The notes beneath the pieces were generated by a model, which searched no databases, was not told where the DNA came from, and saw only the letters and a program-made list of their open reading frames with translations. Shown one piece after another: positions 1,887 through 30,269 of a stretch of 35,133 bases of DNA (positions within the stretch are counted from its first letter, which is position 1; the number at the start of each line of letters is the position of its first letter). A program made the position numbers and the translations under genes. Origin of the DNA: Rhodopila sp. (GTDB lineage: Bacteria > Pseudomonadota > Alphaproteobacteria > Acetobacterales > Acetobacteraceae); the NCBI GenBank assembly GCA_031291715.1, contig JARLIN010000512.1, positions 1 through 35,133 on the forward strand. The letters run 5' to 3'.

Positions 1887-1926
1887 GGCTTCTTTCCTTC
1901 CACAGCCGGTCAGCCCACGCCCGCGG

Positions 1927-2277: not shown

Positions 2278-2278
2278 G

Positions 2279-2845: not shown

Positions 2846-2854
2846 GGCCGGACC

Positions 2855-3247: not shown

Positions 3248-3272
3248 GATCAATCTCCTCGTGAACACGCGA

Positions 3273-15842: not shown

Positions 15843-15921
15843 TTCTCTTCCGTAGGCAAGTAGATTTCGAGGCGACAGCGGGCTGCGTCGCGGGATCGTG
15901 GGCCGAGGCTTCTCCAGAGCC

Positions 15922-16404
15922 TCACCAGGTAAAGAGATTGCCGCCAATGCTTCCGGCGACGGCGCCGGCGACGGTCAGCAAACTGAGGCTGAGCAGAAGG
16001 CGATGCAGCCATTCCACCAGGCGATAGGCCGACTCCGGGGCCGATGCCGCGCGTCGGGACAGCAACCGCTCCAGAAACAAGGGTTCGACAACGAAAAGCA
16101 TCGTCGTGAACACCAGCCACGTCAGAACCATCGCGTGCATCCACCAGAAATCCGCCGACCGGAACCTGTCCCAGACGTCCAGTCGCCACGCCATATAGAA
16201 GCCGCTGAGGCCCGCGACGGTCGTGGTGATCCGGGCCTGCCGGGCGAAGCGGGCCTCCATGGTATGAAACACGGCGAAGCGTTGGGCGGCTGGGTAGGAC
16301 CGCCTGATGGAAGGAAGCAGGACCGTCGTGACCATGCCGACGCCACCGATCCAGAGAACGACAGCGAGAACATGCAGGACTCGCGCAAGAACGATATCCG
16401 TCAC
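15922..16404 (-). CDS. Four-TM membrane protein in the NO-response operon (CopD-like)
   Basis: A 160-residue protein with four hydrophobic segments (residues 6-28, 58-76, 87-108 and 136-154). The opening VLARVLHVLAVVLWIGGVGMVTTVLLP resembles CopD-like membrane proteins, with a His in the first segment that could bind heme or copper. GAAGAGG lies 7 bases before the GTG at 16404, making that the best start; a TTG two codons earlier is possible. It is placed between nsrR-type operators and hmp, so it probably acts in NO or redox stress. Function unknown. Confidence 0.75.
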   Translation of the reverse strand: MTDIVLARVLHVLAVVLWIGGVGMVTTVLLPSIRRSYPAAQRFAVFHTMEARFARQARITTTVAGLSGFYMAWRLDVWDRFRSADFWWMHAMVLTWLVFTTMLFVVEPLFLERLLSRRAASAPESAYRLVEWLHRLLLSLSLLTVAGAVAGSIGGNLFTW

Positions 16405-16642: not shown

Positions 16643-16664
16643 AGTTACGTGCGCCTGGAAATGT

Positions 16665-16679
16665 GGTATCGTCAATACC
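16665..16679. promoter_or_regulatory. Operator-like palindrome 2 upstream of nsrR
   Basis: GGTATCGTCAATACC repeats the GGTAT...ATACC arms of the first palindrome, 20 bases before the nsrR start. The position would allow autorepression. Confidence 0.65.
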
Positions 16680-16698
16680 TATTTATCGGAATTCACCT

Positions 16699-17148
16699 AT
16701 GCGCCTGCTTGCATCCACCGATCTCGCGCTGCGCGTCCTGATGCTGCTCGCTCGTGAACCGGCCGGGCATCACCTGAGCGTCGATGCGCTGGCGCGCGAA
16801 CTTGGCGGCTTGTCGCGTCATCATCTGCATAAGATCGTCCAGGATCTGACCGCGCTGGGTACGACCCGCACCGTGCGCGGGGCCGGAGGCGGCGCGATGC
16901 TGGCCTTGCCCCCGGAGCAGATCCGCCTGGGGACATTGGTAAGGCAATTGGAGGCTGACCAGGCCCTTGTCGAGTGCTTCCGGGCCGACAGGGGAAACTG
17001 CACGCTGACACCGGGGTGCCGGCTTCGCGGGATGTTGAGCGACGCCCAGGACAGCTTCTACAAGAGCCTGGACGGTCACACGCTGGCGGATTGCGCGCTG
17101 ACGCCGTTCGAGCGCGATCGTCCGAGGTTGCATCAGCCTCAGGCGTGA
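16699..17148 (+). CDS. nsrR: Rrf2-family NO sensor NsrR
   Basis: A 149-residue DNA-binding repressor. The winged-helix N-terminus begins MRLLASTDLALRVLMLLA, with the recognition region LSRHHLHKIVQDL. Three Cys (C93, C101 and C107, in ECF...NCTLTPGCRLR) match the cluster-binding Cys of NsrR, and D8 is at the position of the fourth [4Fe-4S] ligand described for Streptomyces NsrR. NO damages the cluster and relieves repression. It is divergent from the hmp operon, with two GGTAT-N5-ATACC palindromes between them. The start at 16699 is fixed by the conserved MRL...TD opening; no strong ribosome site was seen. Confidence 0.92.
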   Translation: MRLLASTDLALRVLMLLAREPAGHHLSVDALARELGGLSRHHLHKIVQDLTALGTTRTVRGAGGGAMLALPPEQIRLGTLVRQLEADQALVECFRADRGNCTLTPGCRLRGMLSDAQDSFYKSLDGHTLADCALTPFERDRPRLHQPQA

Positions 17149-17383
17149 ATCGCCCTCTCGGACAAATAAGCCGGAGCACCACCGCGGTAACCGGACCGGT
17201 CCCGTCGCCCGTAGCGGCAGCGCGGCCACCGCTGGACGGTCGCCCATCCACAAGATTCCCGGAAAACTGGCTTTTTGGGCTGTCAATCTGACGCTGATCC
17301 CCGGTCGGCACCTGCCGTGAGCTGCGTGCCGGGTGATTTCGTGTCGGTGCCGACGACGACGGTGCAGCGCGCCGTAAACCATA
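17149..17383. other. Gene-free stretch after nsrR
   Basis: No gene recognised. At 17342-17358 there is TGTCGGTGCCGACGACG, a near match (final ACG instead of ACA) to the 17-bp dyad described at 17384; it contains the perfect palindrome GTCGGTGCCGAC. The full gap to the next gene runs to 17617 and includes that dyad and a sigma-54 promoter. Confidence 0.4.
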
Positions 17384-17400
17384 TGTAGTCTGTGCCGACA
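17384..17400. promoter_or_regulatory. Predicted activator site (TGT-N11-ACA), amidohydrolase promoter
   Basis: TGTAGTCTGTGCCGACA shares TGT, R at position 11 and GACA with four other intergenic copies, and shares the seven central bases TCTGTGC with the copy at 30186. It lies 84 bases before the -24 element at 17484, a normal enhancer distance. Confidence 0.6.
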
Positions 17401-17483
17401 CATGTTTGTTCGACAGCCAGCGATCCGCCAATCCAGCATCGCGACGCCCCACGGTTTCCCCGGTGAGAGACATGAATACCGGC

Positions 17484-17499
17484 TGGCACGGCTCTTGCT
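17484..17499 (+). promoter_or_regulatory. Sigma-54 promoter (TGGCAC-N5-TTGCT)
   Basis: TGGCACGGCTCTTGCT has GG and GC separated by ten bases and matches the -24/-12 consensus. Transcription would begin near 17510 and run into the damaged amidohydrolase gene about 108 bases later. Confidence 0.85.
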
Positions 17500-17617
17500 C
17501 CACTCCCTGATGATGGCGGCCGCTCATGCGGTCCAACCGAAGGGGCACGAGAAATAAACATGCCACTCGCGGGACTGCTCGGAACTCGGCCCGGATGAAA
17601 CGTGAAAGGAATCGACG

Positions 17618-18536
17618 ATGCCGGATGGGCTACCCGTTTTTTGGCCGTGTCCACTGTCCGAACGAAGAATGGCTTGCACGCACCGCGCCTGAACCGGCGC
17701 TGGAGCCCGATCTGCCAATTGTCGATACGCACGTCCACCTATGGCATTTCGGTGAATGCGCACCCTATTTCGTGCCGGAATATGCCCGCGACCTGGAAGC
17801 ATCGGGCCACAACGTAGAAGCTTCAGTGTTCGTCGAGTGCCACGCCATGTATCGCGCGGACGGGCCCGAGCATTTGAAATGCGTCGGTGAGACCGAATTC
17901 GCCGCGGGTATGGCGGCAATGAGGGCGAGCGGCAAATATACCAAATCCCGGGTGGCCGCCGGTATCGATGCCAGCATCTTTCATCCTCAGATTCCGGACG
18001 TCATTTCGCTGGCGAAGGCTCATCCGGCCGCCAACATCGTACTGATCCATTGCGGGAGTCCGATCGGCCATAGCGCGTATGCAGGCAAGGAAGCCGAAGT
18101 CCACGGGTTCTGGCTCGCGGGCATGAAGGAGCTCACCAAATGCCCAAACGTCTCTGTGAAGATGGGCGGATTACTGATCAACATCGGCAATTTCGATTTC
18201 ACCACCGCGCCCCTCCCGCCTGATTCGGCCACGCTCGCCTCACTTTGGCGCCCCTACATCGAACCATGCATCGAAATCTTCGGCGCAGAACGTTGCATGT
18301 TCGCCTCCAACTTCCCGGTCGATAAGGCGGTTGCCCGCTACGGCACGATCTGGAACGTCTTCAAGCGCATCACCGCCGGGTGCTCGGATGAAGAAAAGCG
18401 AGCGCTGTACAGCGGCACCGCGAAGCGCGTGTGTCGCCATGCCACGTTCGGAGACCAGCGATATCGTCCCTCCCCGTGGCTGGTACGGCGGGCGCGACTA
18501 TCACTACCTCTGTCGGCACCCGACCGGGTAGGCTGA
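17618..18536 (+). pseudogene. Amidohydrolase-2 family metal-dependent hydrolase, apparently decayed
   Basis: The frame from 17625 encodes a TIM-barrel amidohydrolase-2 protein: DTHVHLWHF (metal-binding HxH), LIHCGSP, PNVSVKMGG, then RCMFASNFPVDK near the end. Two defects are visible. First, the ATG with a proper ribosome site (AAAGGA, then ATGCCGGATGG at 17618) is one base out of frame; removing one G in GATGGGCTA would give MPDGYPFFGRV. Second, RVAAGI joins directly to DASIFHPQIPDV, where family members have about 70 more residues, including one wall of the barrel and a substrate region. The C-terminal tail after GTAKRV is also unlike the family. The bracketing parts are well preserved, so decay is recent. 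The intact protein would be a hydrolase or decarboxylase of a cyclic acid or lactone. Confidence 0.7.
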
Positions 18537-18576
18537 TCGGAATAGCTCTGGACTAACACCTGACGGAGACAGACCA

Positions 18577-18954
18577 ATGGCAACTTGGACGCCCGTAGAA
18601 CTCGACAAGATCGGCGCCGCGGAGGAACTGCGGATTTCAACCTTCCGACGCGACGGCACGCTGCGCAATCCGGTTACCATTTGGGTCGTCCGGTATGACG
18701 ACGACCTATACATCCGGTCCGCACACGGTGCGACCGCCACCTGGTTCAGGGGCACCCAGGCTCGTAGCGACGGCCACATCCAGGCTGGCGGTATCGATAA
18801 GGATGTGAACTTTCAGTCCGTTGACCCCGCATTGAATGACCAGATCGATGCGGTGTATCGCACCAAGTATCGACGACATGGCGCGCAGTATGTGAACATG
18901 GTGGTGACAGCCGACGCTCGCGCCACGACGCTGAAGCTGATGCCTCGATCCTAG
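18577..18954 (+). CDS. DUF2255 family protein
   Basis: A 125-residue protein, MATWTPVELDKIGAAEELRISTFRRDGTLRNPVTIWVV onward, with the split-barrel pattern of the DUF2255 family (distantly like FMN-binding nitroreductase or pyridoxamine-oxidase folds, though no cofactor motif is proven). Conserved parts seen are YIRSAHGATATWFRGTQA and a long beta-rich middle. GACGGAGACAG precedes the ATG. It follows the decayed amidohydrolase by 40 bases on the same strand and could be transcribed from the same sigma-54 promoter. Function unknown. The 280 bases after it (18955-19233) hold only a terminator-like hairpin for the convergent gene. Confidence 0.8.
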   Translation: MATWTPVELDKIGAAEELRISTFRRDGTLRNPVTIWVVRYDDDLYIRSAHGATATWFRGTQARSDGHIQAGGIDKDVNFQSVDPALNDQIDAVYRTKYRRHGAQYVNMVVTADARATTLKLMPRS

Positions 18955-19203
18955 ACGGCGCACGGGACTCCCACCGCGATCGGCATCTTGATCCGGTGCC
19001 GTTCTTGCCTGCGCACTATCCAACAAACTCTGAGAGCCCCGGGGGCGAAGATGGATTCGAAGACTTACGATCATATCGTCACATGCCGACCGTCCCCTCA
19101 GGCAATACAAGCATTCCCTGCATGATGATCGGCAAGAAATGCGCCGATATGGTTTTGGCGGACGCGGCCCGACGCGATCGGCGGGAAAGCGATCTGGCGA
19201 GAG

Positions 19204-19225
19204 GGCGGGACCGGCAGGCCCCGCC
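19204..19225 (-). terminator. Possible terminator of the acyl-CoA synthetase gene
   Basis: GGCGGG and CCCGCC form a 6-bp GC stem with a 10-base loop, 9 bases beyond the synthetase stop on its strand. No T-run is present. Confidence 0.35.
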
Positions 19226-19233
19226 TATCCTGG

Positions 19234-21345
19234 TCAGTGATTGGGCTTCCCTGAAACGGTGCCCAGGAAGTCAACCGCCGCCAGCCCTTTTCCCGCCGGA
19301 CGTACCATCACCGGATTGATCTCCGCCTCCGCCAGGTCAGGCGTCGCCAGGATCATGTGGCCGAAGCGGACAGCGGCTTTGATCAGCGCGTCAATATCGG
19401 CTCGCGGGGCACCGCGGAACCCTTCCAGTAGAGTCCATAGCTTCAGCTTTCGCAGTGCGGCCCCAACCTGCTCGGGCGTAACCGGCAGCGCGAGATAGGT
19501 GACGTCACGATACAGCTCGATCGCGACGCCCCCCGACCCGATTGAAAGGACGGGTCCGAAATCTGTGTTACGCAGACTGGACAGCACCACCTCGACCACG
19601 TCGGTGATCATTTCCTGCACGAGCACGCCTGCATCCGGTTTGCCAAGCTTCGCGCGGAACGCGGCGGCGTGGGCATCGACATCCTCGGCTGTCTGCACCC
19701 GCAATTTCACCAGACCCAATTCTGTTTTGTGTTCGGCGTCCGACGGTAGGACCTTGACCACAAGCGGCCAGTTCATGTCCGCGCAGATCTCGGCCGCCTT
19801 ATCGCCAGGCCTCAGGACTTTCCATTTCGCCGGCGTGACACCACTTTCCTCCAGGAAGGACATTGTGTCCTCCCAGGAGACAGGTGCCGGCCGCTTGCCG
19901 ATGGTCTCATCTCGCTCGGCGAGTGTGCTGGCGGACATCCGCTTGCGGTCATAAATCCACCGCAGGGCGCGCATCGTGGTCGATGGATCTTGCGACAGCA
20001 GGATGCCCTCCTTCATGAATTCCGCTCGGACCTCCGGCGATGCCATATTGACGGCGAAGGAGATAATCACCGGCAGTCCATCGCGGGCCGCGGCCTTGAA
20101 TGCGTCGGCATTTTCAGTGAGGTCGCGCATGCCGCCGCTGGCGAACTGCACAACAATCGCCTCGGTGCGCGGGTCAGTGCTGAGCACCGCGACCGTATCC
20201 CGAAACAGATTAGGGAACGCTCGGATTTGGCCGGTCAGGTCAACCGGGTTGGCCTTCCTGGCGAACTCGGGCAGGAAGGTCTCCAGCTTCGCCGCCGTAT
20301 CGGGGCTGAATTCCGCCAACGGCACGCCGAATTCGTCGGCATGGTCGGCTAGCAACGCACCCGCGCCACCCGACGAACCCATGATCGATACACCGCCCTT
20401 GGGATCGCCAGATACCCGCGGCGGCGGCAGGACCGTCAGCACTTCCAGGGCCGCCATGGCTTCCAGCAGACTTTCGACCACGATCACGCCTGCCTGTGCG
20501 AGAACATCGAGGTAGATCCCATACCTCGACGCGATCTTGCCTGTGTGCGAGGCCGTCGCCTCCTGGCCAGACGCGGAACGACCGGCCTTCAACATCACAA
20601 TCTGCACGTTACGTTCGCGCGCCCGGGCGGCCAATGGCAGCAGTCGCGCGGCGTTGTTCAGGCCCTCGACGTAAAGCGCGACGGCGTTGACATCCTCCTG
20701 CTCGATGATCCAGCCGAGGGCATCCAGCGCGTCAAGGCAGGTCTCGTTGCCGACGCTGACAATATAGGAACAGCCGAGCCCGCTTTGTTGCAGGTGGTTG
20801 CCGATCGCACCCGCCAAGGCGCCGCTCTGGCTGATAACCGCGATCGGCGCGTGCTGGATCGAGTCTAGCGCAATCGCCGCCCCCCCGAAGGTGAGCATGG
20901 TCTTGGCCTTGACCGACCACACACCCTGACCATTGGCGCCGAGCACCGCGATACCGTGCTTGCGTGCAGCCTCGGCGAGGCGGCGGGCGTGTTCCTTGCC
21001 TGACTCCACTTCCTCGAACCCGGCGCTGTAGACGATGGCGCAGCGAACGCCCTTCGCCCCACACTCTTCGATAATGCCGGGCACCGTCGCCGCGGGGGTG
21101 ATAATGAGCGCCACATCAGGCGTTTCCGGAAGCTCCGCCAGCGACTTGTAGGCCTTCAAACCTTCGATTTCGCTATGGCTCGGGGTCACCGGATAGACCC
21201 GCCCCGGAAAGCCGTGCTTTAACACGACGCGGACCAGCGTGTTACGCGCAGTCCCGCGGTTTGGCGAAGCGCCCACGATCGCGATGCTTTGCGCGCGAAA
21301 GATCTCGTCCAAAGCTGGTGCTGTGAAATCGGCTTGGCGCTGCAT
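19234..21345 (-). CDS. ADP-forming acyl-CoA synthetase (acetate--CoA ligase family)
   Basis: This 703-residue fused enzyme makes an acyl-CoA from acid, CoA and ATP via a phosphohistidine. The domain order is an N-terminal CoA-binding Rossmann domain (SIAIVGASPNRG, residues about 19-30), a succinyl-CoA-ligase-like middle with the candidate phosphohistidine in ATASHTGKIAS, and a C-terminal ATP-grasp domain (VLVQEMITDVVEVVLSSLR, GSGGVAIELYRD). The start at 21345 is chosen because the conserved protein begins there and GAGGG precedes it; the frame stays open another 160 codons without similarity. It is divergent from the substrate-binding-protein operon and has its own sigma-54 promoter 83 bases upstream. 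It may activate the imported acid or recover CoA ester energy. Confidence 0.9.
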   Translation of the reverse strand: MQRQADFTAPALDEIFRAQSIAIVGASPNRGTARNTLVRVVLKHGFPGRVYPVTPSHSEIEGLKAYKSLAELPETPDVALIITPAATVPGIIEECGAKGVRCAIVYSAGFEEVESGKEHARRLAEAARKHGIAVLGANGQGVWSVKAKTMLTFGGAAIALDSIQHAPIAVISQSGALAGAIGNHLQQSGLGCSYIVSVGNETCLDALDALGWIIEQEDVNAVALYVEGLNNAARLLPLAARARERNVQIVMLKAGRSASGQEATASHTGKIASRYGIYLDVLAQAGVIVVESLLEAMAALEVLTVLPPPRVSGDPKGGVSIMGSSGGAGALLADHADEFGVPLAEFSPDTAAKLETFLPEFARKANPVDLTGQIRAFPNLFRDTVAVLSTDPRTEAIVVQFASGGMRDLTENADAFKAAARDGLPVIISFAVNMASPEVRAEFMKEGILLSQDPSTTMRALRWIYDRKRMSASTLAERDETIGKRPAPVSWEDTMSFLEESGVTPAKWKVLRPGDKAAEICADMNWPLVVKVLPSDAEHKTELGLVKLRVQTAEDVDAHAAAFRAKLGKPDAGVLVQEMITDVVEVVLSSLRNTDFGPVLSIGSGGVAIELYRDVTYLALPVTPEQVGAALRKLKLWTLLEGFRGAPRADIDALIKAAVRFGHMILATPDLAEAEINPVMVRPAGKGLAAVDFLGTVSGKPNH

Positions 21346-21427
21346 ATACCCTCGTCCCCGTTTCCTCGCGTTCTGACGAACGGCAGATCCCGTGCCGCCA
21401 GAAGGTGACATGTCCTCTCTGCCAATG

Positions 21428-21443
21428 AGCAAGGGGCGTGCCA
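21428..21443 (-). promoter_or_regulatory. Sigma-54 promoter for the ADP-forming synthetase
   Basis: On the minus strand the sequence is TGGCACGCCCCTTGCT, a perfect TGGCAC-N5-TTGCT. Transcription would start near 21416, about 70 bases before the ATG. Confidence 0.87.
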
Positions 21444-21497
21444 AACCCGGGGTACAGCGCACGCACCCAGGTTCGGCCCGACGATCAGCAGACGCAG

Positions 21498-21514
21498 TGT
21501 CCCTCCCGGAAACA
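21498..21514. promoter_or_regulatory. Predicted activator site (TGT-N11-ACA) between divergent promoters
   Basis: TGTCCCTCCCGGAAACA keeps TGTC and ACA of the dyad. It sits 55 bases from the minus-strand and 83 bases from the plus-strand sigma-54 promoter, so one site could serve both. Confidence 0.55.
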
Positions 21515-21596
21515 TGCGTCTTCCTCGCACACACATTGTCGGTCGACGTGACCCATAAAGCGCCATTCAAGGCGCCGCCAAGTCGGCGACAGGCAA

Positions 21597-21612
21597 TGGC
21601 ACGCGCCTTGCT
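21597..21612 (+). promoter_or_regulatory. Sigma-54 promoter for the substrate-binding-protein operon
   Basis: TGGCACGCGCCTTGCT is a perfect match to TGGCAC-N5-TTGCT. Transcription would start near 21624, just ahead of the GGGAGGAG ribosome site of the gene at 21650. Confidence 0.9.
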
Positions 21613-21649
21613 GTGCGTCTCCTGAGAAATTCTTTTGGGAGGAGCGAAC

Positions 21650-22873
21650 ATGCACATCAACCGCCGCGCCGCCTTGACCGGTGGCGCCGCCCTGGCCCTT
21701 GCGTCATCGAAACGGGGCCGCGCCCAGGCAAGACCCACTATCAGGCTTGGGGCCTTAGTAGATATGAGCGGCGAATATAGCGCCAACACCGGCCCAAATG
21801 CCGTGGTATGTGCGCGACAGGCGGTTACCGAGTTCAACGCGTCTTCTCACGGGTTCGATGTCGAGTTGATCCAGGCAGATCACCAGAACAAGCCGGACAT
21901 CGGAGCGTCCATCGCTCGCCAGTGGTGCGACCAGGGTATCGACGCGATTGTTGCTGTCCCCACGTCCTCGGTGGCGCTGGCGGTAGCAGAGGTCGCGAAA
22001 GAAAAAAACAAGGTCATGTTAGGCAGTGAGTCATCCACGGCTGCCCTGACCGACACACAATGTAGTCCCAATACAGTTATTTGGAGTCTCGATACCTATA
22101 GCCTCGCTTATGCACTCGGCACTGCCGTGGTGAAGCGGGGCGGAATGAGTTGGTTCTTTGTCGCCGCGGATTACGCGTTCGGGCATGGCATCTCAGAGCT
22201 GGCGTCCGACATCGTAAAAAAGGCCGGCGGTAGCGTTAAGGGAACCATCTTCCATCCATTCCCTGGTACAACCGACTTCTCGTCATACCTGCAGACAGCG
22301 CAGGCGTCGGGGGCTCAAGTGCTGTGTCTCGCAAACGGGGGCACGGATACCCAGAATTGCATCAAACAGGCGCACGAGTTCGGCCTGACGGAGACGATGA
22401 CGATCGCTCCGCTGATCGCGGTTATCGGAGACATCCATTCGCTGGGAGACCTTGGCGCCGGCCTCGACGTTGTGTCGAGTTTCTATTGGGATTTCAACGA
22501 CCGCAGCCGCGCTTTTGCCCGCCGCGTGCTTCCAAATATGGTCGATCATGCCTATCCTAATTGGTTCTTCGCCTCCACCTACAGCCTGACGCTGCATTAT
22601 CTGAAGACGGTGGCGGCAATGGGTGCGAGCGAAGCGAAGAAAAGCGGACGAGATACTGTTGCACGCATGAAGGGTATTCCCACTGACGATGATGCGTTTG
22701 GTCAGGGCCGTATTCGGGCAGATGGGCGAGGCGAATTCCCGGCCTATCTGTTTCGGACCAAGGCACCGTCCAAGCCAGGTGGGTGGGACCTGTACGAACA
22801 CCTGGAGACCATTCCAGCGTCAGAGGCACTCCACCCACTGAACCCCAAATGCGTTTTCCCGATAACGACCTGA
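21650..22873 (+). CDS. ABC transporter substrate-binding protein, branched-chain amino acid type
   Basis: A 407-residue periplasmic binding protein of the LivK-like family (Peripla_BP_6). It has a Tat-like signal (NRRAALTGGAALALA, cleavage near GRAQA), then TIRLGALVDMSGEYSANTGPNA, a typical mature start. SWFFVAADYAFGH and TDFSSYLQTAQAS are shared with the second binding protein at 26663. GGGAGGAG precedes the ATG. No permease or ATPase gene is in the window, so it may use a shared transporter core. It heads an operon with crotonase, MaoC and probably the sigma-54 activator, and likely captures the carboxylic acid the pathway degrades. Confidence 0.92.
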   Translation: MHINRRAALTGGAALALASSKRGRAQARPTIRLGALVDMSGEYSANTGPNAVVCARQAVTEFNASSHGFDVELIQADHQNKPDIGASIARQWCDQGIDAIVAVPTSSVALAVAEVAKEKNKVMLGSESSTAALTDTQCSPNTVIWSLDTYSLAYALGTAVVKRGGMSWFFVAADYAFGHGISELASDIVKKAGGSVKGTIFHPFPGTTDFSSYLQTAQASGAQVLCLANGGTDTQNCIKQAHEFGLTETMTIAPLIAVIGDIHSLGDLGAGLDVVSSFYWDFNDRSRAFARRVLPNMVDHAYPNWFFASTYSLTLHYLKTVAAMGASEAKKSGRDTVARMKGIPTDDDAFGQGRIRADGRGEFPAYLFRTKAPSKPGGWDLYEHLETIPASEALHPLNPKCVFPITT

Positions 22874-22897
22874 CCCACGGAGCGCGAGGAGACGCTG

Positions 22898-23683
22898 ATG
22901 AGCGACTTTGAAGACATACTCTACACAATCAACAACGGCGTCGCGACGATCGCCATCAACCGGCCAGAGAAACTCAACTCCGTAACGGCGCAGTCGTTGC
23001 AAGAGATTGAAGCGGCCTTCGACATGGCTGGAAAGGATCCCGCTGTGGGCGTCGTCGTCCTGACGGGGACCGGCGAGAAATCGTTCTGCACCGGCGCCGA
23101 CGTCTCGTGGCAGAAGGCAGGAAAAATGGGGCGGACCGGCGCAGCGGCGTATTCCCCGCCCTATATGATCATCTCCCGCTGCCCGAAGCCTGTCATCGCG
23201 CGCGTCAACGGCTATGCGATTGGCGGCGGCCACCACTTCGCGTATTTCTGCGACTTCACCATCGCCGCCGAACACGCGATGTTCGGTCAAAGCGAGCCGC
23301 GCGTCGCCTATCCGGCTGGCGGACCCGTGGTGAACTATCTCACCCGCATCGTCGGTCACAAACGCGCCCGCGAGATGTGGATGCTCGGCCGCCGGTACAC
23401 CGCCAAACAGATGATGGATTGGGGACTGGTGAATGCCGTCGTCCCGATGGCGGAACTGGATGCGGAGGTCGCGCGCTGGTGCGACGAATTGCTCGCCGTG
23501 TCCCCGACCTGCCTGAAAATCTACAAAGCCTCTTTCATCGAGGAATTCGAGGACTTGCTCGGCCAGGCCGACTTCCTCCGCCGCTGGATGGTGCCAACCG
23601 AATTCTGGGAGTCCGAACAGAAGGAAGGCACCAGCGCGTTTATCGAGAAGCGGAAAGCCGATTTCTCTCGGTTCCGTAAGTAA
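22898..23683 (+). CDS. Crotonase-family enzyme, MenB/BadI-like but with altered active site
   Basis: A 261-residue crotonase-fold protein (hexameric CoA-ester enzyme). The oxyanion-hole loops are clear: SFCTGADVSW and YAIGGGHH. Overall it reads like MenB and BadI (GHKRAREMWMLGRRYTAKQ, DWGLVNAVVP, terminal RKADFSRFRK), enzymes of ring closure or ring opening. However, in FGQSEPRVAYPAGG the Asp that MenB and BadI use (SFDGG in MenB) is replaced by Ala, while a Glu sits where hydratases and hydroxycinnamoyl-CoA lyases carry their catalytic acid. The reaction could thus be hydration, hydration/retro-aldol or hydrolysis. It lies 24 bases after the binding-protein gene. Confidence 0.88.
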   Translation: MSDFEDILYTINNGVATIAINRPEKLNSVTAQSLQEIEAAFDMAGKDPAVGVVVLTGTGEKSFCTGADVSWQKAGKMGRTGAAAYSPPYMIISRCPKPVIARVNGYAIGGGHHFAYFCDFTIAAEHAMFGQSEPRVAYPAGGPVVNYLTRIVGHKRAREMWMLGRRYTAKQMMDWGLVNAVVPMAELDAEVARWCDELLAVSPTCLKIYKASFIEEFEDLLGQADFLRRWMVPTEFWESEQKEGTSAFIEKRKADFSRFRK

Positions 23684-23721
23684 ACCCCTGAGTATCACAA
23701 CACCCAAAAGGGAGTTACAAT

Positions 23722-24186
23722 ATGACGTCGACCAGACGGGGACTGTATTGGGAGGATTTCGAGGTGGGTCGGGTCATCAGCACCCCCGCCCGCACGATCA
23801 CCTCCACCGACATCGTGAATTTCGCATGCTTGTCCGGCGATTTCAACGAAGTGCACACGAACTGGGAATACTGCAAGACCACGCCATTCGGCGAACCAAT
23901 CGCGCATGGACCGCTCGTCTATGCCATCATGGGCGGCTTGCAGTACGCCAGCGGCGTCAACGATGGCACCTTGCTAGCCCTTGTGCAGGTCGATAAGTGG
24001 CGCATGCTCGCGCCGGTCAAACATGGCGATACGCTGCATGTTGAGGCGACGGTGATCGACCGCAAAGCGTCAAGCAAGCCGGATCGCGGCACTGTTACCC
24101 TGAAGCGCCAATTCCTTCGCCAGGACGGCGTCGTCGTGCAGGAGATGGAGGTGACACTGCTCTACCGCCGCCGGCCCGCGGAGTAG
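23722..24186 (+). CDS. MaoC-like (R)-specific enoyl-CoA hydratase/dehydratase
   Basis: This 154-residue hot-dog-fold protein adds or removes water on an enoyl-CoA or a related thioester. The hydratase motif is visible as SGDFNEVHTNWEYCKTTPFG (catalytic Asp and His, residues about 39-44), followed by IAHGPLVYAIMGGL. AAAGGGAG lies before the ATG. It follows the crotonase by 38 bases and is followed by two stacked hairpins, then the activator gene. It likely acts on the same CoA-bound intermediates as the neighbouring crotonases. Confidence 0.9.
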   Translation: MTSTRRGLYWEDFEVGRVISTPARTITSTDIVNFACLSGDFNEVHTNWEYCKTTPFGEPIAHGPLVYAIMGGLQYASGVNDGTLLALVQVDKWRMLAPVKHGDTLHVEATVIDRKASSKPDRGTVTLKRQFLRQDGVVVQEMEVTLLYRRRPAE

Positions 24187-24191
24187 GTGTG

Positions 24192-24230
24192 CCGCCGAAG
24201 GACGGCGGGAGCCATCCTTGGATGGCTCCC
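24192..24230 (+). terminator. Two tandem hairpins after the MaoC gene
   Basis: CCGCCG-AAGGA-CGGCGG (24192-24208) is followed by a perfect 11-bp stem GGGAGCCATCC-TT-GGATGGCTCCC (24207-24230). They overlap by two bases, so they compete. No T-run follows. They may partly terminate or attenuate the operon before the activator gene. Confidence 0.55.
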
Positions 24231-24282
24231 TCCCCTCCCGATCCGGCGGTGGTTGCATTTGCCTGGGGGCAGGGTATTTAGT

Positions 24283-24299
24283 TGTCCGCCATGGCGACA
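24283..24299. promoter_or_regulatory. Predicted activator site upstream of the activator gene itself
   Basis: TGTCCGCCATGGCGACA is the most symmetrical copy of the dyad. It lies 48 bases before the activator ATG, with no sigma-54 promoter beside it, which suits autorepression or autoregulation. Confidence 0.6.
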
Positions 24300-24346
24300 G
24301 ATTCCGACATAAGAATGCCGCCAACGCCGAGAGGAAGGTCCAACCA

Positions 24347-25999
24347 ATGGAATCGACGAACCCTGCCATTAAGGGTGTCGTTATCGTGGACAGCTCAGGT
24401 CGTATCGCCCTGACGATCGGCGTGGGTGCCGATCGCCGTGTCCGCGCGCTGGCTGGAGACGCTGAATGGCTAGACGAAGCGCGTAAGCGGCGACTCCAGC
24501 CGCTGATCTTTGATAACGCCGACTACGTCCTGCTGGTGACCCATTTCCAGGAAGGCGACCTGATCGTCATCAGTGAACCGCCCGGACAAACCCTGCTGGA
24601 TTTCATTGGCTCCGTCGACTTCGCCTACGAAATCATCGACCGTCTGCTGTCCGATCCGTTTGAGGGCATGACGGTCATCGATAACAAGAAGCGGCTGCGC
24701 TACATCTCGCCGGTGCACGAGAAATTCTTCGGACTGCGCCACGGCGAAGCCAATGGCCGCCCAGTGCGGGATGTCATCGAGAATACCAAACTCGATCGCG
24801 TTATCGACACTGGTCGTGTTGAAATCGGAGAACTCCAGCGGGTGCGCGGTCTGGAACGCATCGTGTCGCGAATTCCGATCAAGCGCGACGGCGAGGTCAT
24901 CGGTGCCTATGGCCGGGTAATGTTCAAAGGACCCCAGCAGATAGAAGGAATTCTCCGGCGGCTGAACACCCTTGAAGGCGAGGTGGAATTCTACAAGCGC
25001 GAAGCAGCCATCCTGCGGGCACGCACCTACGGCCTGGAGAACCTGATCGGCAGCTCGCCAGCGATGCGTAACTTACGGTCCGAGATCATCAAGATCGCAC
25101 CATTGGAAATCCCGGTTCTCATACGCGGCGAAAGCGGTACTGGTAAGGAACTGGTTGCCCATTCGTTGCACCAACTCAGCCCGCGGCGTGACGCCGCGAT
25201 GGTAATGGTCAACTCCGCCGCATTGCCTGCCACGCTCGTGGAATCGGAGTTGTTCGGCTACGAGGCTGGTGCGTTCACCGGCGCTAACAAGAAGGGACGC
25301 AAAGGCAAGTTCGAACAGGCTTCAGGCGGTACGATCTTCCTCGATGAGATCGGCGACATGCCGCTTGAGGTCCAGGTCAAGCTGCTGCGGGTCTTGCAGG
25401 ACCAAATGGTGGAACGCGTCGGCGGCGACCGGCCCTACCAGGTGGACTTTCGCCTGATCACCGCGACCAACTGGGATCTCAAGCAGCTTGTCACCGAGGG
25501 CAAATTTCGGCTGGATTTGTATTATCGCATTTCCGCGCTCGTCATCGAGGTGCCACCGCTGCGTCAACGTATCGGCGATATTCCCGAACTGGCCGAAGGT
25601 TTCCTCAACGATATCGCCACGCGGCATGCCCGCCCAAAGCCGGAACTGACTTCGGACGCGCTATCCTTCCTCATGGAGCAGCGATGGCCCGGCAATGTGC
25701 GGGAACTCCGCCACGAGATCGAGCGGGCCTTTGTTTTTGCCGAAGACGGACGCATCACAACCGATGTGCTTGCACGTTATGGCGACGGCTTGTCGCAACC
25801 TCAGGAACGGCCAACCACGGTGCCGGTTGTGGTGCCGACCGAACCGACCACCATGAAGGAGGCTCTTGCCCAGGTTGAGGTCGAGGTCATTCGTCAGGCA
25901 ATGACCCGCCACAAAGGCAACAAGAAGCGGGTTGCCACCGAACTGGGTATATCGCGGTCGTATCTCTATAAAATGCTGGAGGGACACGTCGCCCACTGA
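24347..25999 (+). CDS. Sigma-54-dependent transcriptional activator, PAS-AAA+-Fis
   Basis: A 550-residue enhancer-binding protein. The N-terminal 90 residues are an unrecognised input region (no receiver Asp pattern), then a PAS domain (about 92-195) and a short coiled coil (200-225). The AAA+ domain follows, with Walker A GESGTGKE (261-268), the sigma-54 contact loop GAFTGA (308-313) and Walker [13 protein letters not shown] Fis-type HTH ends the protein ([20 protein letters not shown]). GAGAGGAAGG precedes the ATG. It presumably senses a pathway CoA ester or acid and activates the six sigma-54 promoters in this window by binding the TGT-N11-ACA sites; that link is inferred from co-location. 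Confidence 0.95.
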
Positions 26000-26005
26000 T
26001 GCTCA

Positions 26006-26034
26006 CCGCAGCGGTCGCCGAACGACCACCGCGG
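26006..26034 (+). terminator. Terminator of the activator gene
   Basis: GGTCG-CCGAA-CGACC with outer CCGC/GCGG pairing forms a GC-rich hairpin 7 bases after the stop, followed by CTTTCTTT. Confidence 0.65.
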
Positions 26035-26047
26035 CTTTCTTTGCACA

Positions 26048-26662
26048 TCAGGTCAATCTGATCATGATGCTCTCGGTTTCAAGAAATGCGTCCAGCCCCT
26101 CTGGACCCATCTCACGTCCAAGACCGCTATGTTTGAATCCACCGATAGGCATGTGGCGAAGCACGGCGTCATCCCGGTAGCTGTTCACCCAAATACCGCC
26201 AGCGCGCACAGACCGGCCAAACCTCATCGCGGTGTTCAGATTGCTCGTCCAGCACCCAGCCACCAAACCGAAAATTGTTTGGTTCGCGAGTTGGATTGCC
26301 TCGTCGACGTCCTTGAACGTCAGGATGCTCCGGACGGGGCCGAAAATTTCCTGCTGCGCGATGCGCGCGTCTGGAGACACCTGGTCGAATACGGTCGGCT
26401 CCAGGAACCATCCTCGGCTGAGGTCTGGGCGATCAGGGCGTTTGCCGCCGATCAGCAGCCGTCCGGCGGACCGGCCGGCCTCGACATAGGATTCCACCCG
26501 GTTCAACTGCGTTTCGGTGACCAAGGGACCGCATGTGGTGTCTTCCGCAAACGGATCGCCCAGTTTGTTGGCGGCGACATGCGACAGGAGGCGGTCCTCG
26601 GCTACCCCGAGCGGAAGCCCTGTTTGCATTCGCGGTCCTAAGCAAGCCGATTGGGGACCGGT
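26048..26662 (-). pseudogene. Aldehyde dehydrogenase, C-terminal fragment only
   Basis: About 200 codons match the last 40% of an NAD-dependent aldehyde dehydrogenase: KLGDPFAEDTTCGPLVT, EPTVFDQV, QQEIFGPVRSILTF, IFGLVAGCWTSN, GGIWVNSYRDD and PIGGFKHSGLGREMG. The full enzyme is about 480 residues, so the Rossmann NAD-binding half is missing. The reading frame runs back to the stop codon of the binding-protein gene at 26663 and may retain the region of the catalytic Cys, but there is no start with a ribosome site. The first Met gives 193 residues. It looks like a deletion that joined the end of the binding-protein gene to the middle of the dehydrogenase gene. It was probably part of the catabolic pathway. 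Confidence 0.8.
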
Positions 26663-27874
26663 TCAGCTTCCCTTAGCCAATGGGCAATCGCTCGCAGCCA
26701 ACGGCTTGTAGGCTTCGTTCCCTGGGATCGTGCTCTTGATGCGCACCATGTCCCACGTTCCAGTCGACTCGCTCGGCTTTTTCACCTCGGCCAGGAACAT
26801 GTCGTGCACCATCTGACCGTCGACACGGATGTGGCCGTCCTTCGCGAAGACGTCGTTGATCGGCGTGTCACGCATCCACTTCAGCACCGGTTCCGAAGCG
26901 TCGGTCCTCGTCGCGGCAATGGCTTTGAGGTAGTGCATCGTCGCCGAGTAGGCAGCGGTCTGGTTTTGATTCGGCATCGCCTTCTGTACTTCAAAGAACC
27001 GCTTGGCGAACTCTCGCGTCTCGGGGGTGCGATCCCAGTAGAATGCGGTCGTGAACTGCAAGCCCTGCGCGGCTTGCAGGCCAAGTCCCTTGATGTCGCT
27101 GTCATAGAACAGCAAGGCGGCAAGCGTCTGGTTCTTCGTCAGGCCAAATTCGGCAGCCTGCTGGATCGCGTTCTGTAGGTCTTTCCCTGCATTGGCCAGG
27201 CCTACCACCTTAGCCTTCGATGCCTGCGCCTGGATCAGGAACGACGAAAAATCCGCCGTGCCCAGAGGCGCCACCGTCGAACCGAGCACCTTCCCGCCAC
27301 TTTTTTCGATCACGGTGGTGGCATCGTTCTGCATCGAATGACCGAAGGCGTAGTCGGCGGTGATAAAATACCAACTGTCACCGCCCTGGCGATCCAACGA
27401 CCCCGCGGTGCCAGCGGCCAGCGCGTAGGTGTTGTAGGTCCATTGGATGCCGAACGGCGTGCATTCCTTGCCGGTCAGCATGGCCGACACCGAGCCAGCG
27501 AACACAATCGGCTTCTTCTTCTCCGTGGCGATCTTCAGCATCGCGAGTGCCGCCGCCGAATCCGAGGATTCAATGATCAAGTCGACCTTGTCGACGTCAT
27601 ACCATTCCCGAGCCTTGGAGGCCGCGATGTCCACTTTGCTCAGATAATTGGCCGATACGACCTCGATCGGTTTCCCGAGAACCGTGCCGCCAAAATCCTT
27701 CACGGCTAGTTCCACCGCTCGGACCACCCCCATGCCGCCGATATCGGCATACGGTCCGGTCATATCGGCGATGACCCCGATCTTCACGACATCGTCCGAT
27801 ATCTGTGCCATCGCAGGGCCGGAGGCCAGCGCGGCGGCGGCCCCAGCCACGGCTATGATGTTTCGAAGTCGCAT
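26663..27874 (-). CDS. ABC transporter substrate-binding protein, branched-chain type (paralogue 2)
   Basis: This 403-residue periplasmic protein has a Sec signal (MRLRNIIAVAGAAAALASGPAMAQ) and a LivK-like fold starting VVKIGVIADMTGPYADIGG. It shares SWYFITADYAFGH, TADFSSFLIQAQAS and the LAN-x-G-x-D-x-QN-x-I-x-QA-x-EFGL pattern with the first binding protein at 21650, so the two are paralogues, probably of different specificity. AAGGAGGG precedes the ATG at 27874. It has a sigma-54 promoter about 50 bases upstream. The only gene after it on this strand is the broken aldehyde dehydrogenase. No permease genes are visible. Confidence 0.92.
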   Translation of the reverse strand: MRLRNIIAVAGAAAALASGPAMAQISDDVVKIGVIADMTGPYADIGGMGVVRAVELAVKDFGGTVLGKPIEVVSANYLSKVDIAASKAREWYDVDKVDLIIESSDSAAALAMLKIATEKKKPIVFAGSVSAMLTGKECTPFGIQWTYNTYALAAGTAGSLDRQGGDSWYFITADYAFGHSMQNDATTVIEKSGGKVLGSTVAPLGTADFSSFLIQAQASKAKVVGLANAGKDLQNAIQQAAEFGLTKNQTLAALLFYDSDIKGLGLQAAQGLQFTTAFYWDRTPETREFAKRFFEVQKAMPNQNQTAAYSATMHYLKAIAATRTDASEPVLKWMRDTPINDVFAKDGHIRVDGQMVHDMFLAEVKKPSESTGTWDMVRIKSTIPGNEAYKPLAASDCPLAKGS

Positions 27875-27922
27875 CTTCCCTCCTTGGGCATATAGCCGAA
27901 ATTCTTGTTCTAGGAGTTGAAG

Positions 27923-27938
27923 AGCAAACCTCGTGCCA
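27923..27938 (-). promoter_or_regulatory. Sigma-54 promoter for binding protein 2
   Basis: On the minus strand the sequence is TGGCACGAGGTTTGCT, a perfect TGGCAC-N5-TTGCT. Transcription would start near 27911, a 37-base leader. Confidence 0.88.
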
Positions 27939-28001
27939 ACTGCCTTGAGCGACACTCAACGGGGTCGCCAAGTCCACTTGCGGCGTTTTTTGCCGCACCG
28001 A

Positions 28002-28018
28002 TGTCGCTGCGGGAGACA
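28002..28018. promoter_or_regulatory. Predicted activator site (TGT-N11-ACA) between divergent promoters
   Basis: TGTCGCTGCGGGAGACA matches TGTC-N2-Y-N3-R-N2-GACA. It is 64 bases from the minus-strand sigma-54 promoter and 165 from the plus-strand one. The divergent region 27875-28395 holds no gene; a small ATG frame starting at 28187 overlaps the promoter and is probably chance. Confidence 0.6.
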
Positions 28019-28182
28019 GACGAGAACGGTTTGTGTAGGCGTCGCGATCACTACGCGCGGTACCCGTTTCGCTACCGAAGATGCTGTACGCGGCAATGCG
28101 TCCGCCTGCGAACGCCTGCTTGCATGGGCTCACCATTTAGACGGTTCACCGGCAGTAGACAGCGATCATCACCCTAAAGACT

Positions 28183-28198
28183 TGGTATGAAGATTGCT
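28183..28198 (+). promoter_or_regulatory. Sigma-54 promoter for the AMP-forming ligase
   Basis: TGGTATGAAGATTGCT keeps GG-N10-GC and the TTGCT box; the -24 element is TGGTAT rather than TGGCAC. Transcription would start near 28209, leaving a long leader of about 187 bases. Confidence 0.75.
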
Positions 28199-28395
28199 AC
28201 AAACTCCAAGAGTGACAAAAAGACAAAGAGGCGTCTGTCAATGCCAGGGCGGCATAACATGCTGGTCTTCCCCGTTTGCGACTTCGGCCGCGGCGTCGGT
28301 CCGGCCAATGGCCACCGGCAACGTGGTACAGCACCTGCGTACCGCGCCCGTGCCTTTTCGCCGCTGCCACTGACCCATCTGAGGAGGCTGATGCC

Positions 28396-30048
28396 GTGAA
28401 GCCATACCTGACACTCCACCATCCAGCCAAAGCACGACTCTACCGGGAGCAAGGGCTGTGGAACGATGATACATTCTATGGACTCCTGTCGCGGAACGCC
28501 TCGGTCAGACCCGACGAGGTCGCACTGGAGGATGGGTCCAAGCGCCTAACCTGGCAGGAGTTGCGCCATTGGGTTGACGGGGTGGCAGCCGACCTTCGGA
28601 TTTACGGCCTCATCCCCGGCGATCGGGTGTCGATCTGGATGTCCAATCGTGTCGAGGCAATCGTCACTTTCCTGGCCTGCTCCCGCGAAGGCTTCGCCTG
28701 CAATCCCTCTCTACACCGGACCTTCACCTGCGCAGACGTCATGCCGCGTCTGGAGCGCCTTTCGGCGAAAGCCCTGGTCACAGAACCAGGATGGAGTGCC
28801 AACGAACAAGAGGTCGATGTTGATGCCGCCTTGGCACGGGTCGAGTCGTTGCGTGTCGTCTACACGCCTGACACCTTTCCCCGGCCCGGTCCAAACATGA
28901 CCCCGCCCTCCGCCGACCCGGACAAGGTGGCCTATCTGGCGTTTACGTCCGGAACCACCGGCAACCCAAAATGCGTCATGCATTCGGACAACACACTGCT
29001 TGCCAATGCACGCGACCTGGTGCGCGATTGGGGGCACACGCGCGACACCGTCATCATGTCGCTTTCCCCCGTATCACATCACATCGCCTGGGTGGCTGTG
29101 GCCCAGTGGCTGCTCCTCGGCTGCCATCTGGTCATGGACAACCCACCGAAGGGAATGAGTCGGATCGACTGGATCACCAACCGGGGTGTCACCTACATCC
29201 TGGGAGTCCCCACTCACGCCATCGACATTCTTGCCGAACAGCGGTCGCTCGGCGCGACGCGCCTAGGCTCGGTTAAGGTGTTCTATATGGCGGGGGCACA
29301 GATTCCGCCCTCGCTCGCGGCCGAATTCATTGCGCAAGGGATCGTGCCGCAGAACGTTTACGGCATGACGGAGAATTCGTCACACCAATATACCCACCCC
29401 ACCGATGAGACCGACACGATTATCGGAACGTGCGGGCGCGGCGGGCTCGCCTACCAGGTTCGAATCTTTGACATCGCCAATCCCGACCGAGAGGTGCCAC
29501 GCGGCGAAGTTGGCCAGATCGGCGGACAAGGCGCCGCACTCATGCTCGGATATTTTGACAACCAGTCAGCAACGGAAAAGAGCTTCAACGCCGACGGCTG
29601 GTTCCTCTCCGGCGACCTTGGGGTCATGGATGGCGCCGGCAATCTCCGCATCGAGGGACGCCTCAAGGACATCATCATCCGCGGCGGCCATAACATATAC
29701 CCCGACCACATCGAGACCTTGGCGATCCGTGGTCAGGGCGTCGAGAAAGCAGCCTGCTTTCCGGTCCCGGATGAACGTCTTGGCGAACGGGTTTGCATTG
29801 CCGTCGTGGGCGACGCCGATCCGCAGGATGTGCTTCGGCATCTGGCTACGGAGGGTCTGTCCCGTTACGAGATGCCGGAATACTTCGCCCGGGTTTCTGA
29901 CTTTCCGGTCAACATCCACGGCAAGGTGCTAAAGCGGGAACTGATCCAGATGGTGGAGCGGGGCGACCTTGCGCCACAACCCATCCGGTTCCGACTGGAG
30001 CAGCCCAACTTGGGCCGGGCATCCCGCCCGAGCGAATCCCGGGTATAG
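28396..30048 (+). CDS. AMP-forming acyl-CoA synthetase / carboxylate-CoA ligase
   Basis: This 550-residue enzyme of the ANL superfamily activates a carboxylic acid with ATP, giving AMP and acyl-CoA. The motifs are AFTSGTTGNPKCVMHS (P-loop), VYGMTEN, GWFLSGDLG, GRLKDIIIRGGHNIYP (hinge) and the C-terminal catalytic Lys region NIHGKVLKREL. The start is GTG at 28396, 8 bases after GAGGAGG; the ATG five bases earlier runs into a stop after two codons. It has its own sigma-54 promoter and is followed after 302 bases by the acyl-CoA dehydrogenase operon. The family contains cyclohexanecarboxylate, cinnamate and fatty acid ligases; substrate not deducible. Confidence 0.92.
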   Translation: MKPYLTLHHPAKARLYREQGLWNDDTFYGLLSRNASVRPDEVALEDGSKRLTWQELRHWVDGVAADLRIYGLIPGDRVSIWMSNRVEAIVTFLACSREGFACNPSLHRTFTCADVMPRLERLSAKALVTEPGWSANEQEVDVDAALARVESLRVVYTPDTFPRPGPNMTPPSADPDKVAYLAFTSGTTGNPKCVMHSDNTLLANARDLVRDWGHTRDTVIMSLSPVSHHIAWVAVAQWLLLGCHLVMDNPPKGMSRIDWITNRGVTYILGVPTHAIDILAEQRSLGATRLGSVKVFYMAGAQIPPSLAAEFIAQGIVPQNVYGMTENSSHQYTHPTDETDTIIGTCGRGGLAYQVRIFDIANPDREVPRGEVGQIGGQGAALMLGYFDNQSATEKSFNADGWFLSGDLGVMDGAGNLRIEGRLKDIIIRGGHNIYPDHIETLAIRGQGVEKAACFPVPDERLGERVCIAVVGDADPQDVLRHLATEGLSRYEMPEYFARVSDFPVNIHGKVLKRELIQMVERGDLAPQPIRFRLEQPNLGRASRPSESRV

Positions 30049-30185
30049 CTGGGTGGTTGCATTCTTTATGACGGCACGACGGGGCGACTGTCCTGGGGCT
30101 GCGATCGGCTCGCCTGGCCAACCGGACGGACACACCGCGCGATGAATGTCGGCGTCCACCATGCAGACAGCCCGCGTCAGCCGAG

Positions 30186-30202
30186 TGTCCTCTGTGCGGA
30201 CA
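30186..30202. promoter_or_regulatory. Predicted activator site (TGT-N11-ACA), dehydrogenase operon
   Basis: TGTCCTCTGTGCGGACA has perfect 5-base arms TGTCC/GGACA and shares its seven central bases TCTGTGC with the site at 17384. It lies 52 bases before the -24 element at 30254. The gap 30049-30350 otherwise holds only the promoter and a leader hairpin. Confidence 0.65.
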
Positions 30203-30253: not shown

Positions 30254-30269
30254 TGGCATGACAGTTGCT
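30254..30269 (+). promoter_or_regulatory. Sigma-54 promoter for the acyl-CoA dehydrogenase operon
   Basis: TGGCATGACAGTTGCT matches the -24/-12 consensus apart from one base (CAT for CAC). Transcription would start near 30280 and drive the run of genes to the window end. Confidence 0.85.

Follow-up and report, generated by a model that had tools for sequence, protein, structure and literature searches.

A conserved, helically phased 17-bp dyad as the probable enhancer site of a PAS-AAA+-Fis activator at sigma-54 promoters

Which DNA word guides the sigma-54 activator encoded at 24347 to its promoters, and is it the 17-bp dyad that recurs around its gene? The question is raised by a 35,133-nt contig from the draft genome of a Rhodopila sp. 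(GCA_031291715.1, contig JARLIN010000512.1), the whole of which is called the window here. An earlier note had pointed out the dyad TGT-N11-ACA in the promoter regions of a putative regulon and had named it a good candidate for the binding site of this activator, a protein with PAS-like, AAA+ and Fis-type domains. Locus comparison, dyad enrichment, phasing and association with sigma-54 promoters support that suggestion, and on sequence evidence the dyad is very probably the upstream activating sequence (enhancer) of the activator. Directly observed are the sites themselves, their helical phasing and the statistics that associate them with sigma-54 promoters and with the activator gene.

All five sites listed in the earlier note (17384, 21498, 24283, 28002 and 30186) are present at their positions. 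Three are exact copies of TGTC-N9-GACA and, as claimed, one arm base is off in the other two, 17384 (TGTA arm) and 21498 (AACA arm); 17384 and 30186 also have the seven central bases TCTGTGC in common. The list was incomplete: two further exact sites lie in coding sequence (24376 and 19866), and weaker partners occur at 17342, 21537 and 30153. The five exact dyads of the window comprise three intergenic ones, one in the activator gene start (24376) and one in a synthetase gene (19866), which is probably background. The dyads are as follows, with scores from the matrix of the other loci described below.

17342..17358, no strand: partner dyad, TGTCGGTGCCGACGACG; precedes 17384 by 42 bp (four turns); score 10.6
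17384..17400, no strand: dyad, TGTAGTCTGTGCCGACA, with a single arm mismatch; its centre precedes the -24 element at 17484 by 92 bp; score 11.3
21498..21514, no strand: dyad, TGTCCCTCCCGGAAACA, with a single arm mismatch; flanked by divergent sigma-54 promoters; score 9.0
21537..21553, no strand: possible partner dyad, TGTCGGTCGACGTGACC; weak (matrix score below 8), at a spacing of 39 bp to 21498
24283..24299, no strand: exact dyad, TGTCCGCCATGGCGACA; starts 64 bp before the activator start codon; score 17.1
24376..24392, no strand: exact dyad, TGTCGTTATCGTGGACA; within codons 10-16 of the activator gene; score 21.3
28002..28018, no strand: exact dyad, TGTCGCTGCGGGAGACA; between divergent sigma-54 promoters; score 14.1
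30153..30169, no strand: partner dyad, CGTCCACCATGCAGACA; precedes 30186 by 33 bp (three turns); score 11.6
30186..30202, no strand: exact dyad, TGTCCTCTGTGCGGACA; its centre precedes the -24 element at 30254 by 60 bp; score 18.2

Strong sigma-54 promoters, matching the pattern TGGCAY-N5-TTGCW exactly, stand at 17484(+), 21443(-), 21597(+), 27938(-) and 30254(+), and a weaker promoter was found at 28183.

17484..17499, plus strand: sigma-54 promoter, TGGCACGGCTCTTGCT; upstream of the amidohydrolase gene
21428..21443, minus strand: sigma-54 promoter, TGGCACGCCCCTTGCT; acyl-CoA synthetase (ATP-grasp type) gene
21597..21612, plus strand: sigma-54 promoter, TGGCACGCGCCTTGCT; binding protein, BadI/MenB-like hydrolase and MaoC genes
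27923..27938, minus strand: sigma-54 promoter, TGGCACGAGGTTTGCT; second binding-protein gene
28183..28198, plus strand: weaker sigma-54 promoter, TGGTATGAAGATTGCT; CoA (coenzyme A) ligase gene
30254..30269, plus strand: sigma-54 promoter, TGGCATGACAGTTGCT; acyl-CoA dehydrogenase, enoyl-CoA hydratase and SDR genes

Measured edge to edge, the dyads lie about 51-164 bp from the -24 elements of these six promoters (17484, 21443(-), 21597, 27938(-), 28183 and 30254), in agreement with the 52-165 bases given earlier, and two of them, 21498 and 28002, indeed stand between divergent promoters. Sites 17384, 21498, 28002 and 30186 occupy the position expected of an upstream activating sequence, tens to about 200 bp upstream of a -24/-12 element; 24283 does not. 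The claim of one site for each sigma-54 intergenic region holds for these four and fails for 24283, since no sigma-54-like match was found at 24150-24380, before the activator gene, even at 7 of 11 positions. A consensus search for a sigma-70 promoter of the activator gene found none.

Strict sigma-54 matches number 22 in the 6.24-Mb genome, five of them in the window, and all five have a dyad scoring at least 9 (two share site 21498), vs one scoring at least 8 at only one of the 17 strict promoters elsewhere. Exact TGTC-N9-GACA occurs 34 times in the genome, five times on the 35-kb contig, where about 0.16 would be expected at the density of the other 29. With up to one mismatch the window holds 12 dyads, about half of them in coding sequence, vs a mean of 3.16 after shuffling; none of 100 shuffles reached 12.

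We compared the window with 20 loci that carry relatives of the activator in Alpha-, Beta- and Gammaproteobacteria. A pattern-based scan of a genome collection gave six loci, four of them usable: metagenome-assembled genomes of Hyphomicrobiaceae (66% identity) and Pseudomonadales (51%), Alteromonas lipolytica (51%) and Tropicibacter naphthalenivorans (52%, frame broken); L035 and L036 were excluded as fragments. A profile of the N-terminal region, run against 385 genomes of the class, found two further loci besides the window's own, and a search of 398 genomes of the phylum added two strong loci, 14 rows of weak PAS relatives (E 1.9e-19 to 7.5e-16) being excluded. Relatives were also present in 15 plasmid records, 12 of which entered the set (Aminobacter, Methylorubrum extorquens AM1, Celeribacter, Salipiger, two of Paraburkholderia, three of Cupriavidus, Burkholderia and two of Achromobacter); the matches H2, H9 and H11, with identities and spans equal to those of H1, H8 and H10, were left out. 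L072, a near-copy of L065, was left out of the dyad enumeration and the spacing tests, and L069 and L073 were also left out of the non-redundant spacing test.

In the 19 loci counted without the window, we enumerated 256 tetramers paired with their reverse complements at gaps of 0-20 (5,376 dyads). The 48 regions searched (14,304 bp in total) comprised 300 bp before and 30 bp after the partly estimated activator start and 250 bp before each 10- or 11-of-11 sigma-54 match. The motif had already been noticed in outside loci before this enumeration; the count itself favours no word. TGTC-N9-GACA came first of all dyads, occurring 16 times where the rest of the loci would predict 0.64 (log10 P -16.7) and Markov sequences 0.18, and in 100 Markov sets the top count of any dyad averaged 7.9 and never exceeded 13. 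The second-ranked dyad, GTGT-N11-ACAC, is the same motif shifted by one base. The arms TGTC and GACA were found 16 times at N9 and not once at N8 or N10. The consensus of the outside sites is about TGTC-S-K-Y-R-W-Y-R-M-S-GACA; the Y-N3-R interior read from the window recurs in them, with a pyrimidine at position 7 in 30 of 32 half-sites and a purine at position 8 in 24 of 32.

A symmetric matrix was built from the 16 outside sites, and scores of at least 10 were counted as matches. At the 19 orthologs, on which this matrix was partly trained, it gave 29 matches in 5.7 kb, vs 13 in 111.8 kb around other sigma-54 activators of related genomes (29 loci, L002-L030). Because of this partial training, a held-out version was run that leaves each locus group out. 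Around the activator gene this version found 5.3 matches per kb (32 in 6.0 kb, from 16 of the 20 loci). The rate was 1.3 per kb before other sigma-54 promoters (11 in 8.2 kb, five of these belonging to the near-copies L065 and L072) and 0.16 per kb in the remainder of the loci (67 in 414 kb). Counted separately, the window has two, five and two matches in these three classes. The motif is also kept in L064 and L071, where the neighbouring genes differ in part. Conservation in orthologous loci, proposed earlier as a check, is therefore borne out, and the converse, that the motif is just as common in unrelated DNA, disagrees with the low rate elsewhere and with the single positive among the 17 other strict promoters. 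As an upstream activating sequence should be, the dyad is conserved with its cognate activator and enriched over the background, although at the activator gene itself four of the 20 loci have no site.

Helical phasing, absent from the earlier note, points in the same direction. Adjacent dyads lie mostly 20-23, 31-34 or 40-42 bp apart. In 17 non-redundant loci the spacings between adjacent matches were 20, 20, 20, 23, 28, 31 (five times), 32, 33, 40, 40 and 41 bp, i.e., 14 of 15 at 20-23, 31-33 or 40-41 bp with 28 as the sole exception (Rayleigh test at 10.5 bp, P 2e-4 vs uniform spacing); a larger spacing set gave a best period of 10.1-10.4. In the window, 17342/17384 (42 bp) and 30153/30186 (33 bp) are phased pairs, 21498/21537 (39 bp) is a weak one, and a partner for 28002 was looked for and not found. 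Such phasing is what an oligomeric activator bound to one face of the DNA would need.

Several observations weigh against the dyad as enhancer of this activator. In four of the 20 loci (L062, L065, L066 and L067) no site near the activator gene reaches a score of 10; of these, L062 encodes an activator without its N-terminal part, L065 has dyads at other sigma-54 promoters, and L066 and L067 have them only at looser 9-of-11 promoter matches. Among the loci of weak PAS relatives, 2 of 14 have a site scoring at least 10. Several start codons in the other loci are alignment-based estimates, and the matrix gives 17342, 17384, 21498 and 30153 modest scores of 9.0-11.6. A rule that allows one arm mismatch also finds a match at 5 of the 17 outside promoters, vs 5 of 5 in the window, and the arms alone therefore discriminate less. 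Finally, the 29 exact sites outside the window do not lie beside strict sigma-54 promoters (one has a 10-of-11 match 218 bp off, another a 9-of-11 match at 39 bp); the dyad word alone is therefore insufficient.

The protein proposed to read these sites has the make-up of a sigma-54 enhancer-binding protein.

24347..25999, plus strand: activator; from the N terminus, an alpha/beta and a PAS domain, the AAA+ domain for sigma-54 interaction (with GAFTGA) and a Fis-type helix-turn-helix

Its AAA+ domain (PF00158, E 5e-67), the GAFTGA loop present in the translation and the Fis-type DNA-binding domain (PF02954, E 7.6e-11) are the hallmarks of that class. A structure model of the N-terminal 228 residues (mean predicted local distance difference test, pLDDT, 77; predicted template modelling score, pTM, 0.62) has an alpha/beta domain (about 8-87), a PAS-like domain (about 93-194) and then a long helix. 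The top Foldseek match of this model is the cytoplasmic PAS domain of CitA, with the TyrR N-terminal region (2jhe) at rank 23; the Pfam PAS match lies below the Pfam cut-off, and no GAF domain was found in this region at E 0.1. Given this domain make-up, the activator is probably a one-component regulator with a cytoplasmic sensor. In 15 of the 21 loci its recognition helix has the sequence [IV]SRSYLYK, and the other six show small changes (such as SRSHLYK).

From the sites, their spacing and this architecture we infer direct binding, one dimer per site, a hexamer, an inducer and autorepression. One activator dimer would bind each 17-bp palindrome through its Fis-type helix-turn-helix, and two or three palindromes at two, three or four helical turns would place dimers on one DNA face and could aid hexamer formation. 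An inducer, perhaps a pathway intermediate, would signal through the PAS domain; the hexamer would then loop to sigma-54 polymerase at the six -24/-12 promoters and open them by ATP hydrolysis. Through the 24283 site the activator probably curbs its own synthesis: with no sigma-54 promoter and a position directly before the activator gene, this site is likelier to be autoregulatory, a view also suggested by the many loci with sites close before, over or just inside the (partly estimated) activator coding start. Homologous exact dyads (GGTGTC-N9-GACAGC) occur in the first activator codons of the window (24376-24392), L063 (15012-15028) and L064 (3694-3710), and since all three encode GVxxxDS, they may be operators or may only reflect a constraint on the protein.

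The dyad could instead be the operator of another regulator of the cluster that travels with these genes, such as the Rrf2-type protein encoded at 16663-17148, for which the 24283 site before the activator gene might serve as a repressor operator. We consider this quite unlikely: the comparison loci were chosen by the activator alone, and their other regulators and part of their pathway genes differ; no Rrf2 product is listed in eight annotated neighbourhoods, whose gene tables are incomplete; and the dyads stand in phased pairs at the distances expected of sigma-54 enhancers. The Rrf2-family gene (plus strand) also lies near a gene for a nitric oxide (NO)-inducible flavohaemoprotein (14589-15947, minus strand), which suggests that the two form a separate NO-response unit. 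Alternatively, the dyads might be true sites of the activator and act mainly as silencing operators, with the sigma-54 promoters served by another activator. The site at the activator's own gene, with no sigma-54 promoter beside it, would fit this; the other sites lie 51-164 bp upstream of the -24/-12 elements and not over them, and GAFTGA is retained, which makes such a role very unlikely. It is still harder to regard the dyad as a NifA-type activating sequence (TGT-N10-ACA), a highly improbable reading despite the similar outer letters TGT...ACA, the sigma-54 setting and the NifA-like AAA+ domain: the spacer is 11 and not 10, TGTC-N8-GACA was found 0 times vs 16 for N9, the sensor is PAS-like with no GAF domain detected, and the protein scores under the NifA model cut-off (328.7 of 528.85 bits). 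Chance in G+C-rich DNA, helped by the reader's eye, has a next to negligible probability, for although TGTC and GACA are common in the genome, a reversed control pattern occurs 5 times vs 34, so that composition or coding favours the dyad word, and the 29 exact sites beyond the window all lie within stop-free stretches of at least 115 codons, it runs against the concentration on the contig, the conservation in loci counted without the window, the single spacing and the phasing. The dyad thus remains best read as the enhancer of the activator at 24347.

Besides two binding proteins, the operons of the window code for an amidohydrolase, an ATP-grasp acyl-CoA synthetase and a CoA ligase, a BadI/MenB-like hydrolase, a MaoC hydratase and enoyl-CoA hydratases, an acyl-CoA dehydrogenase and an SDR enzyme. 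From this set we infer a pathway for a cyclic acid via its CoA ester. The curated cut-offs were not reached for BadI (237.6 of 467.6 bits) or AliA (210.8 of 792.3 bits), and a BadI-like match was examined in one outside locus only, L061. On several plasmids the activator likewise stands beside a CoA ligase, enoyl-CoA hydratases, an SDR enzyme and an acyl-CoA dehydrogenase. Other neighbourhoods differ in part: Salipiger has mainly transporters and rpoN, and Achromobacter A8 a thiolase set. We hold it to be evenly balanced whether these loci represent a portable module, in which a PAS-type activator moves with its own enhancer code, 17-bp palindromes at spacings of two, three or four helical turns, between Alpha-, Beta- and Gammaproteobacteria, often on plasmids, is wired to partly different CoA-thioester pathways and transporters, and carries the same palindrome at and inside its own gene start, away from sigma-54 promoters, as a built-in brake. 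In L064 (Salipiger abyssi pPABY4), a plasmid gene annotated rpoN (1903-3333) points away from the divergent activator gene, which means that the module may in this case supply its own sigma-54. In L034 (10001-11342, Tropicibacter naphthalenivorans) the activator gene is not in one frame, its halves matching in different frames. Around 11626-13266 of L062, the M. extorquens AM1 megaplasmid, the activator has no N-terminal part (its match begins at residue 126), neither an exact dyad nor a sigma-54 match of at least 10 was found, and the locus looks like a relic.

The host draft genome has 545 contigs (6.24 Mb; 91.13% complete, 4.29% contamination), and since the window is one whole contig of it (C313), a plasmid or mis-binned origin is possible. 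Full-length activator relatives outside the genus reach E 1e-174 or better, and in 32 genomes of the same genus no activator match better than E 1.4e-75 or near full length was found; among the matches listed, those of the genus start at residue 168 or later. The conclusions on the motif are independent of host identity, and the genome-wide control of sigma-54 promoters and exact sites depends on it. A 193-aa aldehyde dehydrogenase frame (26048-26629, minus strand) aligns with the final portion of the family alone (Aldedh 287-460 of 461) and is apparently a remnant.

Dyads also occur before sigma-54 promoters on other contigs of the same genome. The sole outside promoter with a matrix match (L123, contig C106, about 4370-4454; TGTCGGTATTATTTACA, score 13.8) has it some 60 bp upstream of the -24 element, in the vicinity of hisZ/purA-like genes, and the match may be chance or a further target. 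Two promoters similar to each other (L121, 2191-2228, contig C487; L122, 7531-7568, contig C502) each have two dyads upstream, spaced by 21 bp, whose arms are related and whose core differs (TGTCCGAAAGCCGGAC); these may form the enhancer of another activator. The frames directly downstream gave no Pfam match at E 1e-5.

These results provide a predicted binding site and a spacing rule for an activator family present in 15 plasmid records and scattered genomes, so that the genes controlled by each member become predictable from sequence, and they link a group of genes for CoA-thioester degradation to a single control protein. The loci also form a natural data set in which enhancer number and helical phasing vary while the recognition helix changes little.

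Open-access text searches found, among the matches listed, neither a published description of the dyad site, although motifs printed in figures would be missed, nor a characterisation of this activator family. TyrR boxes, TGTAAA-N6-TTTACA, have similar outer letters, and the TyrR N-terminal region is among the fold matches of the activator; the boxes differ from the 17-bp dyad in their length of 18 bp and their A+T arms, and TyrR acts on sigma-70 promoters. The best curated model for the activator is PrdR (NF041552, residues 134-588 of a 593-aa frame, E 1.6e-110), yet its score is 370.1 of the required 795 bits, and no proline reductase genes were found among the family matches of the window proteins. 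The enzymes resemble those of the bad-ali system, with a BadI-like hydrolase and an AliA-like ligase that score well but under cut-off. Control differs: cyclohexanecarboxylate genes in Aromatoleum are governed by the MarR-type repressor BadR with the operator CAA-N4-TTG, and that article does not mention sigma-54 (PMC9795900). A study of Desulfovibrio activators gives, in its accessible part, other motifs, such as yGTCA-N6-TGACr (PMC4641369). NifA is close in site type, with the palindromic enhancer TGT-N10-ACA bound by an AAA+ activator at sigma-54-dependent genes (PMC6066989); binding here is predicted from comparison, and the window differs from the NifA system in its spacer of 11 instead of 10, TGTC/GACA arms, a PAS instead of a GAF sensor, and catabolic instead of nitrogen-fixation genes. 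The arrangement recalls CbrB, which uses several non-palindromic hexamer sub-sites in front of a sigma-54 promoter, all on one helix face and with centres 20-25 bp apart (PMC6296734); phased sub-sites before a sigma-54 promoter are common to both, with the difference that the window sites are each palindromic. Since the known sites differ and no earlier report was found, the dyad is, as far as we can see, a new and well-supported candidate enhancer site of known sigma-54 type, with its own spacing rule.

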